DNA of 61,013 nt from an uncultured Verrucomicrobiota bacterium (GTDB lineage Bacteria > Verrucomicrobiota > Verrucomicrobiia > Opitutales > Opitutaceae), in NCBI GenBank assembly GCA_903960515.1, contig CAJCBL010000186.1, forward strand, positions 1-61,013. Reading direction: 5' to 3'. Positions 21,178 through 51,430 of this stretch are shown here, piece by piece; position 1 is the first letter of the stretch; each line of letters starts with the position of its first letter. A program made the translations under genes and the position numbers. The notes under the pieces are model-generated. The model searched no databases, was not told the origin of the DNA, and saw only the letters and a program-made list of their open reading frames with translations.

Positions 21178-21269
21178 GTAGGTCCAGTCTCCGACTGGAC
21201 CGCTGAGCCCTCGCGCAAATACTCGATCACCGCTCTGGCCCACCGATGCCGGTCGGAGACCGGACCTAC
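21178..21269. repeat. Palindromic repeat, GTAGGTCC...GGACCTAC type
   Basis: Composite inverted repeat of 92 bp. The left end GTAGGTCCAGTCTCCGAC and right end GTCGGAGACCGGACCTAC are near-perfect complements, and each half itself folds. The same design occurs at 50406-50495. It fills the gap between the divergent rluB start and the rsmH end. Confidence 0.75.
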
Positions 21270-43971: not shown

Positions 43972-44182
43972 GGAGTGGAACCGCAAGCAAAGGGCCCGCC
44001 CCCGCCGGTTCAAGCCTCGGCTTGAGGGGGCACCCGGCATGGGGTGCAACCGGAAGTGAAGTTTCGTTTCTCTGCCAATCGCGACCCCGCTGGCAGTTGA
44101 ATCGCAGGGGGGCGCGGATGGCAGCCGGTTTCCCTGTCCCCAAACCACACGTCCAGTTCCTCCCCAGAAACAAGCCGATCGG

Positions 44183-44403
44183 AGATCAGATCGGCCGCGA
44201 GCGTGATTCCGTGAACGTCACCGTCGATCTGACACTCATCGCCCGGCTCCGGACGTTCCACGAAATCCTCACGGCTACGGTGACGGGGGCAAAGCCCGCT
44301 CCTGCGTGCAAAGCCGTCCAAAACGAATCAACCCCACTCCTCGCATAGCCCGGCCGTATAAACTGACGGTCGTCAGTTTATACGGTCGGCAAGACAGCGA
44401 AGC
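44183..44403. repeat. ~215-bp direct repeat, unit 1
   Basis: Shared with unit 2 (44614-44826), offset about 422 bases. Conserved blocks include GATCTGACACTCATCGCCC, GGCAAAGCCCGC/TGCAAAGCCCGC and ATCAACCCCACTCCTCGCA, then the palindrome. No plausible coding sequence. Both copies lie in the 43972-45004 gap, in which nothing else is recognised. Confidence 0.75.
44354..44385. promoter_or_regulatory. Perfect 32-bp palindrome, putative operator, copy 1
   Basis: Arms CCGTATAAACTGACG and CGTCAGTTTATACGG with a GT centre, a perfect 15-bp inverted repeat. The A/T-rich arms stand out in this GC-rich DNA, and the ACTGACNNNNGTCAGT layout resembles TetR-family operators. It lies between divergent ketosynthase 2/ACP2 and the lipoprotein/radical SAM 3/ligase set. 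No regulator gene is in the window, so an operator role is inference; a cruciform or hairpin role is possible. Confidence 0.55.
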
Positions 44404-44613
44404 TGAACGTTGCCGGGCCCCAGGGTGGCCGGCGGCACTGCGCACACCAAAGCGCCCGCCCAAAAGCAGACTCACCACACGGCACGACGGCCACAGCCAA
44501 CGCGGGGCGCACCGCACAATTCGTCGCCGGCACACCAGCAACCAGCGGTGAAAACCCTTCGGCTTCCATAGTACTCCAATACGCGCTCAACCTTGAAGAA
44601 TGACAGGGGACAC

Positions 44614-44826
44614 GATCAGCGAGCGTACTTCCGTGATCCTCACCGGCGATCTGACACTCATCGCCCAGCTCCGAACGCTCCACACAATCCTCACACCTAC
44701 GTTGGCGGGTGCAAAGCCCGCGCCACCGTGCAAAAGCCGCCCAGATCAAATCAACCCCACTCCTCGCACAGCCCGACCATATAAGACTGACGGTCGTCAG
44801 TTTATACGGTTGGCAGAATAGCCGAA
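44614..44826. repeat. ~215-bp direct repeat, unit 2
   Basis: Second copy of the unit at 44183-44403, roughly 75-80% identical by eye with a few small indels, same order of blocks and the same terminal palindrome. Confidence 0.75.
44777..44809. promoter_or_regulatory. Palindrome, putative operator, copy 2
   Basis: Same as copy 1 except for an A for G and one inserted G in the left arm (TATAAGACTGACG against TATAAACTGACG). The inner ACTGACG GT CGTCAGT core and the right arm are unchanged. It lies 196 bp before the lipoprotein start. Confidence 0.5.
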
Positions 44827-45004
44827 GAGCGAATCCGGCACTGTGCGCAAACTTAACGTCCAGTCCCACCCGGCATGGCCGGCCGGTGACACAGCTTGAC
44901 CGGGTGGCCCCCAGCGACTCGAATCACAAACTTCGGATACCGAAGCCCTGCCTGCACCGCGCACCAGACAACAGCAACCACCCGCAAATTCCCTGGATAC
45001 AACC

Positions 45005-45802: not shown

Positions 45803-47365
45803 ATGCGCGTCACCCTCGTACATCCCGCCGGTTTCAACTTCGTGCCCGGCCAGCCCGACTTCTCGGTGCTGGCCAACCGCATGGCGCCCATCGGCCTGCT
45901 CCAGCTCGCCGCTTGGCTCGAGCAGCACGGCCACCCCACCGCCGTACACGACTGCCTCGGGCCTGTCGCCCCGGTCGGCCTGACCGGCAACGTCGAGCTG
46001 ATCCTGGCCACGAAACCCGACCTCGTGGGCTTCTCCTCCACGACCTCCGGATTCATGGATACGGTGGACCTTGCCGCCGAGATCCGCCGCCGCCGCCCGG
46101 AAATCCGCCTTGTGGTTGGCAACGTCCACGCCACCTCCATCGGCGCTCCGCTGCTGCAACACTTCCCCGAGATCGACGCCCTCTGCATAGGCGAGGGCGA
46201 GGGCGCGATGCTCGACCTCGCCGAGGGGCGCCCCTGGAAGGACATCCCCAACCTGGTCTACCGCGAGGGCGACGCGATCCGCGCCAACCCCCGCCGCAAC
46301 CGCATCCTCGACCTGGATTCGCTGCCCTTCCCCGCCTACGAGAAGCTCGCCGGCTTCCCCCGCGGCTACCACCTGCCGCTCTTCTCCTACGAGAAGCGCT
46401 GGGGCGCCACGATGATCACTTCGCGCGGCTGCCCCTATACCTGCTCGTTCTGCGACCGCACCATCTTCGAGCGTCTCCACAAGTTCAACTCTGCCGCCTA
46501 CATCCATGAGCACATGCGGCACCTGCGCGACCGCTTCGGCGTGCGCCACATCAACATCTACGACGACCTCTTCACCGCCCACAAACAGCGCGTCGACGAC
46601 CTCTGCCGCCTGCTGGTCGACCGCCCCCTGGGCGTGAATTTCAACTGCGCCATCCGCACCGGCCACACCTCCACCGAGATGCTGCGCGATCTCAAGCGCG
46701 CCGGGGCGCTGATGGTTTCCCTCGGTATCGAATCCGCCGACCCCGAGATGATGCGCCGCCACAAGGCCGGTGTCACCCTCGGGGCCGTACGCGACACGGT
46801 GGACAAAATCCACGCAGCCGGCCTGCGGGCGAAGGGCCTGTTCATCTTCGGCCTCCCGGGCGAGACGCCGGCCACACTGCGCGCCACCAGCGATTTCGTC
46901 CTCTCGCTCGATCTCGACGAGATGAACATGACCAAGTTCAGCCCGATGTACGGCGCCCCGATCTGGGAGGAGTGCACCAGCGGCCGCTCGGGCGACTTCC
47001 ACGAGGACTGGCGCCTGATGAACTGCCTGAACTTCGTATTCAAGCCCTCCGGCTTTGCCAGTCGCGAGGAAATGGACGCCCTGTACAACTGGCACGTTCG
47101 GCGATTCTACGACAGCAAAGGCTTCCGCCGGCGCTTCGCCCGCCGCCTGTGGGCGCACCGCTGGAGCCTCTGGCATGTGGTGAAGAACCTGCCACGTATC
47201 GTACAAGCGGCGCGCTATTTCAGCGCGAACAAGGCCCAACTCGACGCCGCGCGCCGCGACTTCCCCCTGCACCCGCGCCAGCCCCGCGATCTCCCACCCT
47301 TCCTCAGCCCCGAGCTGCGCGCCGACGCCGCCACCGCCATTGCTCCAGTGCAGCCGCCACGCTGA
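45803..47365 (+). CDS. B12-binding-type radical SAM protein 3
   Basis: Class B radical SAM protein of 520 aa. The N-terminal domain (1-165) has VTLVHPAGFNFVPGQPDFSVLANRMAPIGLLQLA, LVGFSSTTSGFMDTV and LVVGNVHAT. The cluster motif is SRGCPYTCSFC (C210, C214, C217), followed by INIYDDLFTAHKQRVDDLCRLL and FIFGLPGETPATLRAT, then a C-terminal helical domain rich in aromatic residues. The layout is that of HpnJ/BchE-like enzymes. Start at 45803 follows a terminator, so it needs its own promoter. It lies four bases before the ligase gene, so the two are co-transcribed; it may therefore act on the starter or an early intermediate. Confidence 0.85.
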   Translation: MRVTLVHPAGFNFVPGQPDFSVLANRMAPIGLLQLAAWLEQHGHPTAVHDCLGPVAPVGLTGNVELILATKPDLVGFSSTTSGFMDTVDLAAEIRRRRPEIRLVVGNVHATSIGAPLLQHFPEIDALCIGEGEGAMLDLAEGRPWKDIPNLVYREGDAIRANPRRNRILDLDSLPFPAYEKLAGFPRGYHLPLFSYEKRWGATMITSRGCPYTCSFCDRTIFERLHKFNSAAYIHEHMRHLRDRFGVRHINIYDDLFTAHKQRVDDLCRLLVDRPLGVNFNCAIRTGHTSTEMLRDLKRAGALMVSLGIESADPEMMRRHKAGVTLGAVRDTVDKIHAAGLRAKGLFIFGLPGETPATLRATSDFVLSLDLDEMNMTKFSPMYGAPIWEECTSGRSGDFHEDWRLMNCLNFVFKPSGFASREEMDALYNWHVRRFYDSKGFRRRFARRLWAHRWSLWHVVKNLPRIVQAARYFSANKAQLDAARRDFPLHPRQPRDLPPFLSPELRADAATAIAPVQPPR

Positions 47366-47369
47366 CACC

Positions 47370-48746
47370 ATGACGGCCACCATCCTTTCCAGCTGGCAGG
47401 CCACCGTAGGCCGCGCCCCCTCCGCCCTGGCCCTGATCGACGGCGCAAGCGGGCGCCGGTGGTCGCGCGCCGAGCTCTCCGCCGTCGCCGAGGAGTGGAG
47501 CCAGACCGCCTGCGCGGGGCCCGCCCTGGCCGGCCGGCGCGTGCTGCTGGCCGAGCCCAACGGCCCTGGCTGGTGGCGCGCCTTTCTCGGCCTGCTGCAA
47601 CTCGGCGCCATCCCTGTGCCGGCCGACTCCACCGAACCGGCCGCCGTGCTGGCCGAGCAGGCGCGAGGACTGCGAGCCGGCGCACTCTGGCACGCGGGCG
47701 CACTGCATCCGCTTCCAGGATCGATCCGGCACCGCTGCGGCGACCTCTGCCTGCTCAAGCTCACCAGCGGCAGCACCGGCACGCCGAAAGCGCTGCCCTT
47801 CACCCATGCCCAGATGCTCGCCGATGGCCGGCAGGTCTGCGCTTCGATGGGCATCGGCCCCGAAGACCTCAACCTCGCCGTGATCCCGCTGGGCCACTCC
47901 TACGGGCTAGGCAATCTCGTCGTGCCACTATTGTCACAAGGAACGCCGATGGTCTGCGTAGCCAGCCCGTTGCCACAGGCGCTGGCCGCCGACATCGCCC
48001 GCTGGAAGCCCACCGTTTTTCCCGCCGTGCCCACGCTGCTGCGCGCGATGGTCCGCAGCGATCTCGACCCCGCACAACTCTCCAGCCTGCGACTTGTCGT
48101 CTCCGCCGGTGCCGCTCTGCCTGCCGAGGTTGCCACAGCCTTCTCCGAAAAGTTCGGCCACCGCGTGCACGGCTTCTACGGAGCGAGTGAGACAGGCGGT
48201 ATCTGCTACGACCGCACCGGCGAGGACACCCTCACCGGTCGCTCCGTAGGCACGCCGCTTGAGGGAGTGCAACTGCACTTCCGCCACGGGCAACGTTTCA
48301 CCGTAGCGAGCGCAGCGGTGGGCCGGCGCGGGCGCCACTCGCCCGCGGACCGCGCCACGCTCGATGCCGACGGCGGGCTCGTCCTCCTCGGCCGCGCCGG
48401 CCGTATCGTGAAGATCGCCGGCCGCCGGCTCGACCTCGCCGAAGTGGAGAACGCCCTGCTGGCGCTCCCCGGCGTACGGGCGGCCTGCGTACTGGCGCAT
48501 CCGCAGCGTACCGACGCCCTGATCGCCGCCGTGGCCGCCGACCGTCCCGGCACCGACCTGCGCGCCGAACTGGCCCCGCGGCTCGCTCCCTGGAAGATCC
48601 CCGCCCACATCCACGTGCAGCCGGAGTTGCCCCACTCCGCTCGAGGAAAGCTGGATCGCCGGGCGGTTGAAACTTGGTTGATCTCCGCACCGCCCGCCAC
48701 CAGTAGAGCGTCAACCAAGGTCGCACGTTCTACCCGCCTCCAATGA
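47370..48746 (+). CDS. AMP-dependent ligase (starter-loading, ApeH-like)
   Basis: ANL adenylating enzyme of 458 aa that is expected to activate an aryl acid and load it on an ACP. P-loop LKLTSGSTGTPKALP, A5 FYGASETGGICYD, A7/A8 GRAGRIVKIAGRRLDLAEVENAL and the A10 motif ARGKLDRRA with the catalytic lysine are present. Its short length matches the ligases of aryl polyene loci. The region 48247-48631 is about 98% identical to a truncated copy at 49811, and a 20-residue tail beyond the A10 motif (ISAPPATSRASTKVARSTRL) has no family counterpart. A chorismatase gene 1.7 kb away points to hydroxybenzoate as substrate (inference). Confidence 0.86.
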   Translation: MTATILSSWQATVGRAPSALALIDGASGRRWSRAELSAVAEEWSQTACAGPALAGRRVLLAEPNGPGWWRAFLGLLQLGAIPVPADSTEPAAVLAEQARGLRAGALWHAGALHPLPGSIRHRCGDLCLLKLTSGSTGTPKALPFTHAQMLADGRQVCASMGIGPEDLNLAVIPLGHSYGLGNLVVPLLSQGTPMVCVASPLPQALAADIARWKPTVFPAVPTLLRAMVRSDLDPAQLSSLRLVVSAGAALPAEVATAFSEKFGHRVHGFYGASETGGICYDRTGEDTLTGRSVGTPLEGVQLHFRHGQRFTVASAAVGRRGRHSPADRATLDADGGLVLLGRAGRIVKIAGRRLDLAEVENALLALPGVRAACVLAHPQRTDALIAAVAADRPGTDLRAELAPRLAPWKIPAHIHVQPELPHSARGKLDRRAVETWLISAPPATSRASTKVARSTRLQ

Positions 48747-48813
48747 ATAAACCCGGCCGAGAATTCAGGCGCGGTAATCAACTGCGGCCAAAGGGCTCGC
48801 TACCCGACCGAAA

Positions 48814-49602
48814 TCAGAGGTCGATGCCGAAGTCAAAGCAACTGCCGTTGGCCAACCCCATCAGCCCGACAACGGTTTGATCGGAGGACATGACCATCGC
48901 GTATTCACCGACGGTCAATGCCCGCTGGGGCACCGCCCGGTAGATGACAAATCCCTTTGGCGCCCTCACCTGCTCGAATCGCTCAAACTTCATGGCAACC
49001 ACTCGCTGAGGAGGGAATCCGGTCGAGTAACTGGCGTAGCCGCCGCCGGTCATGACTTCCCGGCTCCCGTTCTTGCGAACCGCAAAATTGACGAGATCCA
49101 CAGCACTGTTCGGCTGAGCGCGCTCCGGAATACAGAGAAGGAAATTCGGCGTGGAGTTCTTGAGCCGAATGTTGCTGCGCACGCCGCTCAACACGCAATA
49201 GCTTGCCACCCCACCGAATCCCAAACCCCGCGCCGCCGCGCGAACCTGTAACTTCGAATACTGCAATACAGTCTCGGTACCGCCATCGAGCAAGATCACG
49301 TCGGAGGGCGACATCAGATCGCCACTTCTCGCTTCCACCGTTTTGGTCTCGGTAGACTTGCCAGCAACCCGACTAATCACGGCAGTCACGATGGTCTTAG
49401 ACACCTTGGCTTCCCCCAGACCAATCAGGCCGTCGGGTGTAGCGTCAAACTTCGGTTCACTATTCTGGATCGCAGACAAAATGATACCTTCGTCGAGGCC
49501 GGAGCGAACCATCTTGATGACATCATCGTTGGTCATGGGGGCAGCCATCACAGCCGCGCCGAGCAGAGACAGGGACAACAAGAGAGAACTAAGGAGTCGC
49601 AT
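48814..49602 (-). CDS. Exported protein of unknown function
   Basis: Predicted periplasmic protein of 262 aa; family not recognised. Signal peptide MRLLSSLLLSLSLLGAAVMA. The mature N-terminus MTNDDVIKMVRSGLDEGIIL resembles the short helical motif found in many exported proteins of Acidobacteria and Verrucomicrobia. The rest is beta-rich (DVILLDGGTETVLQYSKL, VDLVNFAVRKNGSREVM, MKFERFEQVRAPKGFVIYR). Base composition is visibly less GC-rich than its neighbours. It lies between the ligase and the rearranged ligase/chorismatase relics, so it may be an insertion. Confidence 0.7.
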   Translation of the reverse strand: MRLLSSLLLSLSLLGAAVMAAPMTNDDVIKMVRSGLDEGIILSAIQNSEPKFDATPDGLIGLGEAKVSKTIVTAVISRVAGKSTETKTVEARSGDLMSPSDVILLDGGTETVLQYSKLQVRAAARGLGFGGVASYCVLSGVRSNIRLKNSTPNFLLCIPERAQPNSAVDLVNFAVRKNGSREVMTGGGYASYSTGFPPQRVVAMKFERFEQVRAPKGFVIYRAVPQRALTVGEYAMVMSSDQTVVGLMGLANGSCFDFGIDL

Positions 49603-49659
49603 AGCCCGAACCGTGTTCAGTGCCTCCCGACGTGTCGAACCCTATTTCCGAAGCGGTAC

Positions 49660-49799
49660 TATTCCCGCCGGCCTCCGCGCTCATCAGCGTACCCTATATC
49701 TCAACACCGAGTTCCCGGTGACAGATATCGGAGCGCAGATAGCTCACCCGATCAGCCGGCCGCAGCATAGCGCGCGCGAGCACAGCCAACACCGCCCCA
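49660..49799 (-). pseudogene. Chorismatase 3' relic
   Basis: Reads on the minus strand as RVSYLRSDICHRELGVEI, stop, GTLMSAEAGG. It aligns without gaps to the end of the intact chorismatase (QVSYLRSDICRRELTIEIEATLIGAEVGG), about 82% identical in DNA over 85 bases. The stop replaces the Glu of the conserved EIE segment. Only about 45 codons remain. Confidence 0.8.
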
Positions 49800-49810
49800 C
49801 GATCGCATTC

Positions 49811-50250
49811 TAGGCACGCCGCTTGAGGGAGTGCAACTGCACTTCCGCCACGGGCAACGTTTCACCGTAGCGAGCGCAGCGGTGGGCCGGCGCGGGCGCC
49901 ACTCGCCCGCGGACCGCGCCGCGCTCGATGCCGACGGCGGACTCGTCCTCCTCGGTCGCGCGGGCCGTATCGTGAAGATCGCCGGCCGCCGGCTCGACCT
50001 CGCCGAAGTGGAGAACGCCCTGCTGGCGCTCCCCGGCGTACGGGCGGCCTGCGTACTGGCGCATCCGCAGCGTACCGACGCCCTGATCGCCGCCGTGGCC
50101 ACCGACCGTCCCGGTACCGATCTGCGCGCCGAACTGGCCCCGCGGCTCGCTCCCTGGAAGATCCCCGCCCACATCCACGTGCAGCCGGAACTGCCGGTTA
50201 CCGAACGCGGAAAGACCGACCGGCAAGCCGTGGCGAAGCTGCTGGGCTAA
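49811..50250 (+). pseudogene. 5'-truncated ligase copy
   Basis: Encodes only the C-terminal lobe of the ANL ligase, from GTPLEGVQLHFRHGQR to the end. The first 385 bases match 48247-48631 of the intact gene with about nine differences and no indels, then the tails diverge: VTERGKTDRQAVAKLLG here against HSARGKLDRRAVETWL there. Without the N-terminal domain it cannot adenylate. A short open frame remains, but no start with a Shine-Dalgarno is visible. Confidence 0.85.
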
Positions 50251-50365: not shown

Positions 50366-50400
50366 GTCGGTCGGAGACCGGACCTGCTTCGGACCGACCA
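50366..50400. repeat. Half palindrome, GGTCGGAGACC type
   Basis: GGTCGGTCGGAGACCGGACC followed by CGGACCGACC. Half unit of the family seen in full at 50406-50495. Confidence 0.6.
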
Positions 50401-50405
50401 AGCGA

Positions 50406-50495
50406 GTAGGTCCGGTCTTTGACCGGACCAGGGACGTAAACGTTTGTTGGTGGTCACACCAAGCGCGGTATGGACCGGTCGGAGACCGGTCCTAC
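50406..50495. repeat. Palindromic repeat, GTAGGTCC...GGTCCTAC type
   Basis: 90-bp composite inverted repeat; left GTAGGTCCGGTCTTTGACCGG and right CCGGTCGGAGACCGGTCCTAC-type arms as at 21178-21269. It overlaps the chorismatase stop and may serve as its terminator. Confidence 0.72.
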
Positions 50496-51430
50496 TCGCC
50501 GCCTACCTCAGCGCCAATCAGCGTAGCCTCGATCTCGATAGTGAGTTCCCGGCGACAGATGTCGGAGCGCAAATAGCTCACCTGATCCCCCGGCCCAAAC
50601 AGTTCCCGATCGAGCAGAGACCTCACCGCACCAAGGTCGGCCGCGTCCCGCAGGTACACCTTGAAATGCCGGACCGCGGCCCGGCCTCGCGCGAGATCGG
50701 CACCCAGCCCGCAGGCCACGGAAATCTCGCGCAGGTTCTCCAGGGTTGAGGCGAGTTGCGGCAGGGTTTCACCTGGCGCCAGTGTCGCATGTCCACGGAT
50801 GGCTGCCGTTCCAGAAATGAATACGTCGTGTCGTCCGTCCACGCCCGGCACCACAGTAGCGCGAGCGAAGCTCGGCGGCCGCGGCCCGTGCTCGACCGGA
50901 TACTCGTAGGCGGGCAACTGCCGGGGATTCTCAACATGGCGCAGTCGGCGATGGGTGGCCGCGAAGATCACCACGAGCTTCGCCGCGTCGGTGCCCACGG
51001 CCGAGGCCGCCGGCACAAAACGCTGAAAATCCCGTCCGAACTCCGCCTCAAACGCCAGCGACCGCCCGCGGCTGAATGCACGGTAACGCTCAAGTCCACA
51101 CGCCTCCGGGGCGTTGATCGCGGGCACATAGTTCCAAACGCGGGCCAAGTGCATCCCTCGCGTCACCGCAAAGAGCGCAGTATAGAGTTCGCGCGTCGCC
51201 AGTTCGATGATTCCCCCTGTAGGTACCGTCGCCGCACCCAGCAACCATCCCTCCGCCCGGGAGAGCATGAACGGCCCGGCCATCCCCGCAGACTCGGCAG
51301 CCGGAAACACCCGCTCGACGGCCAGACCGTCGAGCACAGGCAACCCGGTGGAGAAGCAAGCTCCTCCGGTCGCCGCCAAAACAACACCCAACCGCGACCG
51401 CTCTGCCGCGGCTGGAGACAGATCGTGCAT
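50492..51430 (-). CDS. Chorismatase (FkbO/Hyg5/XanB2 family)
   Basis: Hydrolyses or eliminates chorismate to give a dihydroxycyclohexadienoate or 3-/4-hydroxybenzoate plus pyruvate. The 312-aa protein has the family blocks VWNYVPAINAPEACGLERYR, AFSRGRSLAFEAEFG, FISGTAAIRGHAT and, near the end, SYLRSDICRRELTIEIEATL, where the Cys and Glu belong to the active-site region. XanB2 of this family supplies hydroxybenzoate for xanthomonadin, an aryl polyene; the nearby ligase, ketosynthases and ACPs make the same role likely here. The subtype (which product) cannot be decided by eye. The gene is on the minus strand, convergent with the ligase copies. Confidence 0.86.
   Translation of the reverse strand: MHDLSPAAAERSRLGVVLAATGGACFSTGLPVLDGLAVERVFPAAESAGMAGPFMLSRAEGWLLGAATVPTGGIIELATRELYTALFAVTRGMHLARVWNYVPAINAPEACGLERYRAFSRGRSLAFEAEFGRDFQRFVPAASAVGTDAAKLVVIFAATHRRLRHVENPRQLPAYEYPVEHGPRPPSFARATVVPGVDGRHDVFISGTAAIRGHATLAPGETLPQLASTLENLREISVACGLGADLARGRAAVRHFKVYLRDAADLGAVRSLLDRELFGPGDQVSYLRSDICRRELTIEIEATLIGAEVGGE

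Follow-up and report, generated by a model that had tools for sequence, protein, structure and literature searches.

Possible C-terminal displacement in an AMP-forming ligase gene of an uncultured Opitutaceae bacterium

In a contig of an uncultured Verrucomicrobiota bacterium (Opitutaceae), an intact gene for an AMP-forming ligase is followed by a second, headless piece of a ligase gene. The two share an almost identical segment and then run into different 3′-ends, which raises the question of which end is the original one and how the locus came into its present form. The window, i.e., the whole stretch of DNA analyzed (61,013 nucleotides), makes up contig C186; the genome draft comprises 379 contigs and has a completeness of 96.8%. 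A gene for a B12-binding radical SAM protein ends at position 47365, directly in front of the ligase gene, and open reading frames nearby match ketosynthase, LolA-like and acyltransferase families. The locus may belong to an aryl-polyene or xanthomonadin-like pathway; a literature search on aryl polyenes in Opitutaceae did not disclose any report.

The 385-bp repeat and its two tails

The intact ligase gene (47370 to 48746, plus strand) encodes 458 amino acids, for which both AMP-binding and AMP-binding_C exceeded the Pfam cut-offs. It includes the first copy of a direct repeat, hereafter R (48247 to 48631, plus strand). The second copy (49811 to 50195, plus strand) constitutes the headless ligase piece, copy B, for which only AMP-binding_C exceeded its cut-off. 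Comparison of the two copies base by base at an offset of 1564 confirmed the original prediction of a 385-bp repeat without indels and with about nine substitutions at these coordinates. The copies are identical at 376 of 385 positions, contain no indels and differ by exactly nine mismatches (48357, 48377, 48392, 48398, 48537, 48551, 48557, 48626 and 48627), seven of which are synonymous by codon and two residue-changing. Identical runs of 110, 138 and 68 bp were found between the copies, the first of which opens R at the junction, where the edge is free of erosion. Both edges of R are abrupt, with four of four bases mismatched on the left (48243 to 48246) and five of five on the right (48632 to 48636). 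In front of the four left mismatches, the bases TCGC (48239 to 48242) match again, which describes the present sequence and not the one before the event. The R pair is the largest direct repeat in the repeat listing, where it appears as an ungapped family of 300 nt at 97%, and its likeness is too long to be due to chance.

Downstream of R, the intact gene continues into tail A (48632 to 48746, plus strand), a diverged ligase end with an extension, as judged by codon and tail comparison and by the predicted structure. Copy B continues into tail B (50196 to 50250, plus strand), which ends with a stop codon and was assigned by codon and tail comparison to the native type. It had been proposed that the tails differ in almost every codon and nevertheless keep an RGKxDRxA motif. 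This description holds, since 16 of the 18 codons compared from P421 onwards differ (only GGA and AAG are identical) and the motif is present in both tails. K427, the lysine of the RGK, does not vary among 14 aligned ligases, one of which carries tail A, and is aligned with the GK of the benzoate-CoA ligase 4rlf; presumably, it is the C-terminal lysine of the A10 motif, which is catalytic in ANL ligases. The predicted structure of the ligase with tail A (mean pLDDT 84.7) has an ANL fold matching solved ANL ligases, with a predicted tail A helix formed by residues 430-439. Confidence was lower in the stretches 341-350 (pLDDT 61) and 421-430 (pLDDT 69), and residues 133-138 and 442-458 remained below 50. 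With K427 kept and a helix predicted, tail A is still a proper ligase end, and the chimeric enzyme may be active. Codons ending with G or C are rarer in tail A (11/18) than in the ligase body (353/420; p 0.02), a finding which fits decay and another source of the tail alike.

Tail B and the native order of the locus

Family searches were performed with 200 genomes, our own included, drawn from a larger group. G001 and G002, the sole other genomes of the same genus in this set, served as sisters. The intact ligase is 76% identical to the sister ligases. Inspection of the sisters for two intact ligases revealed only one ligase in each of them, and this close ligase is convergent to a chorismatase gene with 118 (G001) and 41 (G002) bases between the matches. 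A convergent arrangement within at most 300 bp was found in 32 of the 58 other family genomes that possess both genes. Another 16 of the 58 have the convergent pair with a gap of 0.4-1.7 kb (G050, G133, G072, G125, G042, G134, G096, G036, G117, G148, G189, G028, G024, G071, G153 and G053), and in ten the genes are otherwise placed, five of these being split across contigs. At the loci L049, L058 and L060 (genomes G198, G147 and G113), the matches of the convergent ligase and chorismatase genes share approximately 27-51 bases, and the ligases have long tails.

In the window, the neighbor of tail B is an intact chorismatase-like gene (50492 to 51430, minus strand; 312 amino acids), the same neighbor as in both sisters. 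Of the two models for FkbO/Hyg5 chorismatases, its product matched PF21168 with 81.7 bits, above the cut-off of 27. The match to TIGR04444 had an E value of 2.5e-58, but its 197.8 bits lie below the cut-off of 325. The spacer between tail B and this gene contains REP-like palindromes. The REP-like sequence GGTCGGAGACCGG is located at 50369 and 50477, both within the spacer, and at 21251; it has 23 exact copies in the genome, while the reversed pattern used as control gave none.

The tails were compared with those of the sisters and of other ligases, the latter taken from the best 29 of 62 loci from other genomes (E 1.3e-127 or better); a Novosphingobium protein (26% identical) is among three loci from named relatives. 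Tail B agrees with G001 in 40 of 54 bases (74%) and with G002 in 38 of 54 (70%), and it is closest to both sister tails. Tail A is not: the respective values are 31 of 54 (57%) and 30 of 54 (56%), and two ligases of other genera within the best 29 of 62 loci tie with it at 31 of 54. As far as two sister genomes can tell, the tail on the truncated copy thus appears to be of the native type and to lie beside its native neighbor. Because tail B is sister-like and keeps the chorismatase neighbor, the tail of the intact gene has been replaced or has decayed. The suggestion that the intact gene has lost its original tail is supported by these data, the usual tail being found on the truncated copy together with the native chorismatase neighbor.

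The origin of the mosaic had been sought in recombination or gene conversion between two ligase paralogues. A mosaic shaped by recombination or conversion is supported by our data, but two paralogues are not: the next ligase match in the own genome is only 34% identical, and the DNA between the R copies has no further copy there.

Upstream of the ligase, the stretch from 44028 to 45004 has no DNA match in the sister stretches. Inside it resides a diverged tandem duplication (44197 to 44398 and 44619 to 44822; 84-89% by piece), both copies of which carry ACTGACGGTCGTCAGT. This sequence, presumably similar to a TetR-type operator, occurs five times in exact form in the genome; the control gave no hit.

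The block between the repeat copies and the age of its parts

The R copies enclose a block of approximately 1.2 kb comprising tail A, an orphan gene of 262 amino acids on the opposite strand (48814 to 49602, minus strand) and the dead end-piece of a chorismatase gene (49665 to 49805, minus strand) with an in-frame TAG. The GC content of the block (0.53-0.61) contrasts clearly with that of the ligase body (0.65-0.80), and only weakly with that of the spacer and the chorismatase gene (0.59-0.69). Homologues of the orphan gene were found in six of the 199 other family genomes, and neither of the sisters is among these six. Its product gave no match to Pfam or NCBIfam profiles at E 0.01, nor any to PDB sequences at E 1. 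The protein has a hydrophobic N-terminus and is sporadic in the family. Around its two best homologues, inspection by eye of open reading frames of at least 100 amino acids did not reveal any ligase.

The chorismatase end-piece repeats positions 50499 to 50639 with 107 of 141 identical bases and is more diverged than R. It is nearest to the gene of its own genome (64/78 bases), the next value among 29 others, the best of 62 loci, being 52/78. Trees of the chorismatase end were not used, the piece being too short: IQ-TREE paired the fragment with L108 (support 50), unlike FastTree, which placed it beside the own gene plus L109 (0.92). Since the trees were unsettled, we relied on site counts at positions where G001 and G002 agree. 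The non-coding parts of the block were also aligned locally with the native spacer; none of the six tests beat its shuffles.

The site counts revealed 37 lineage-specific changes common to both R copies, two private changes in each copy and one site where both differ. The chorismatase fragment and the intact gene have 13 changes in common, along with 12 and six private ones, respectively (Fisher p 2e-5 for the contrast with R). Plain divergence gave the same picture with 9/385 in R versus 34/141 in the chorismatase ends (p 9e-14). We therefore concluded that the fragment arose within the own lineage, at a time when the R copies had not yet become as alike as they are now. The later split of the R copies implies that recombination was recent or repeated. 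The tails share one change, with 11 private changes in A and four in B, and they are more diverged (26/51) than the chorismatase ends (p 7e-4). Thus, the parts of the block seem to be unequally old. Of the tandem rearrangement in the original prediction, the repeat itself is real; however, more than one tandem event must be assumed, as the orphan gene is absent from the sisters and the decayed chorismatase end is older than the likeness of R.

We lean towards a C-terminal displacement in a biosynthetic ligase as the explanation of the locus. The ancestral order would have been ligase body, R, tail B and chorismatase, as in both sisters. Through recombination with its anchor in the 3′-part of the ligase gene, a block consisting of tail A, the 262-aa gene and the dead chorismatase end would then have come to lie behind the gene body, with the 385 bp now present twice. 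The ligase body would now read into tail A, and the old tail B would have been shifted downstream on a headless piece, which is probably silent. In the simplest one-step route, R would have undergone one crossover with a 1,564-bp unit, circular or in tandem, that consisted of R, tail A, the 262-aa gene and the chorismatase end. This route and the source of tail A are reconstructed. The comparisons themselves show the structure of the locus, that tail B is of the native type and that the R copies split late. The direct repeats might recombine again, by which the copies would be kept alike or the native gene restored.

Several observations speak against a displacement. The chorismatase fragment appears to stem from the own lineage, which argues against an entirely foreign origin of the block, and its components seem to differ in age. 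Its GC contrast is weak on the right side. A DNA search of the own genome and the 199 other family genomes, in which two candidates were scored per genome, yielded no donor for tail A or the block, and only 18 codons of tail A are comparable. In three genomes, the best foreign matches to the block (E 8e-9 to 2e-6) fall on the orphan gene or the chorismatase end, and among the matches listed only short pieces of the tail A stretch are covered. The nine differences between the R copies are weakly clustered (p 0.04; p 0.05 without the last two), which might instead point to patchy gene conversion.

The clustering would also suit the main rival explanation, an old tandem duplication within the lineage that reached from R to the chorismatase end and was followed by gene conversion of R. 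In the first copy, the spacer, the tail and the chorismatase end would have drifted and gained the 262-aa gene, and the conversion tract would have ended near 48631. This accounts for the order of the parts, for the 13 changes that the fragment has in common with its nearest relative, the own gene, and for the age contrast between R and the fragment, which is to be expected if conversion was limited to R. Yet the headless copy would have been dead since the duplication, and it is this copy whose tail is of the native type, whereas the tail of the intact gene has drifted. Moreover, the unequal divergence of tails and chorismatase ends is unlike that of parts of one duplication, and the first 110 bp of R, at the junction, are identical and the edge there is uneroded. 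We regard this duplication as possible but rather doubtful.

An artefact of assembly or strain mixing, in which the native locus and a separate block-bearing molecule or strain variant were fused via the 385 bp, is a still less probable explanation. The draft assembly is broken into 379 contigs, and the exact run of 138 bp would allow an assembler with k ≤127 to cross-join the halves. On the other hand, in the contig R adjoins the block at both ends, and some molecule in the sample would thus still carry the two joined; moreover, a chorismatase end of the own lineage is not expected in a chimera of unrelated stretches. Resolved the other way, the assembly graph would give the native locus with the block apart from it, as a circle or an array; in both cases, the block would be real. 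Finally, the ligase tail might be a reversible cassette, the 1,564-bp unit leaving and re-entering via the R copies, perhaps as a circle, so that either tail would occur within one population; we consider this very improbable.

Comparison with known systems

In gene conversion between duplicated genes, identity changes sharply from high to low inside homologous copies. Unlike in ordinary conversion, the partner of the ligase gene is headless and the unusual tail is found on the intact gene.

The favored displacement has closer counterparts. C-terminal displacement with a detached old tail has been described for Rhs loci (PMC2935791) and for T6SS effector loci (PMC5361080). For Rhs, a circular intermediate and a single crossover were proposed (Jackson et al. 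2009, PMC2935791). The ligase locus resembles the Rhs loci in three respects: a conserved body has acquired a new tail with intervening genes, the old tail being found further downstream on a piece of that body; the two bodies, attached and detached, hardly differ (here 376/385); and the detached tail is the ancestral one, as suggested here by the two sister genomes. It differs in that it concerns a ligase of a biosynthetic locus in one case in one genome, and in that the ligase tails are distant homologues with a common motif, whereas Rhs tips are described as non-homologous alternatives. Nor does anything at the ligase locus suggest a toxin or immunity function.

The flanks of 29 other ligase loci, the best of 62, were inspected over up to approximately 1.5 kb (in five loci one of the flanks was shorter, the shortest having 281 bases), and no convincing second ligase C-terminus was found. 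Two protein matches on the opposite strand (E 0.005 and 0.006) were judged to be due to chance, as were short DNA matches, the best of which covered 21 bases at L053 (E 5e-5). Recurrence or arrays of detached tails in the manner of Rhs were likewise not found at these 29 of 62 loci, and for this reason we do not class the ligase locus as a member, although it works like a displacement that happened once. A narrow literature search for such displacement involving adenylation domains gave one paper, which from its title concerns Xenorhabdus, and we make no claim to priority from this result.

For the crossover itself, a laboratory plasmid inserted into Escherichia coli offers a parallel. Of 60 clones, 56 gave a product with the duplication, which measured 109-950 bp in the 14 clones that were sequenced (Amarir-Bouhram et al. 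2011, PMC3240628). At the ligase locus, too, part of the target gene is present on either side of the inserted DNA. All native parts (body, R, tail B and chorismatase) are present and R is duplicated; the combination of no native loss and a duplicated R fits insertion by a single crossover as outlined there. Unlike in the plasmid experiment, donor and route are deduced from the scar.

A close alternative to the crossover with a circle is homology-facilitated illegitimate recombination, which has been proposed for the displacement of T6SS effectors (PMC5361080). As in this process, one end of the block would be anchored by homology and the other joined without it, and the old parts moved downstream (PMC3240628). 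The same study states that such recombination usually, though not absolutely, deletes target sequence of similar size, whereas the ligase locus has lost no native part and has R duplicated. A further feature of this process is microhomology of 3-10 bp at the illegitimate junction.

The locus is thus a single recombination scar of evolutionary interest and not a new kind of system. If the scar in this biosynthetic ligase is indeed one of displacement, it would suggest that displacement is a general outcome of recombination at homologous gene bodies and not a property of toxin-type loci. The locus also provides an ANL ligase that is a chimera by nature and has a testable tail.
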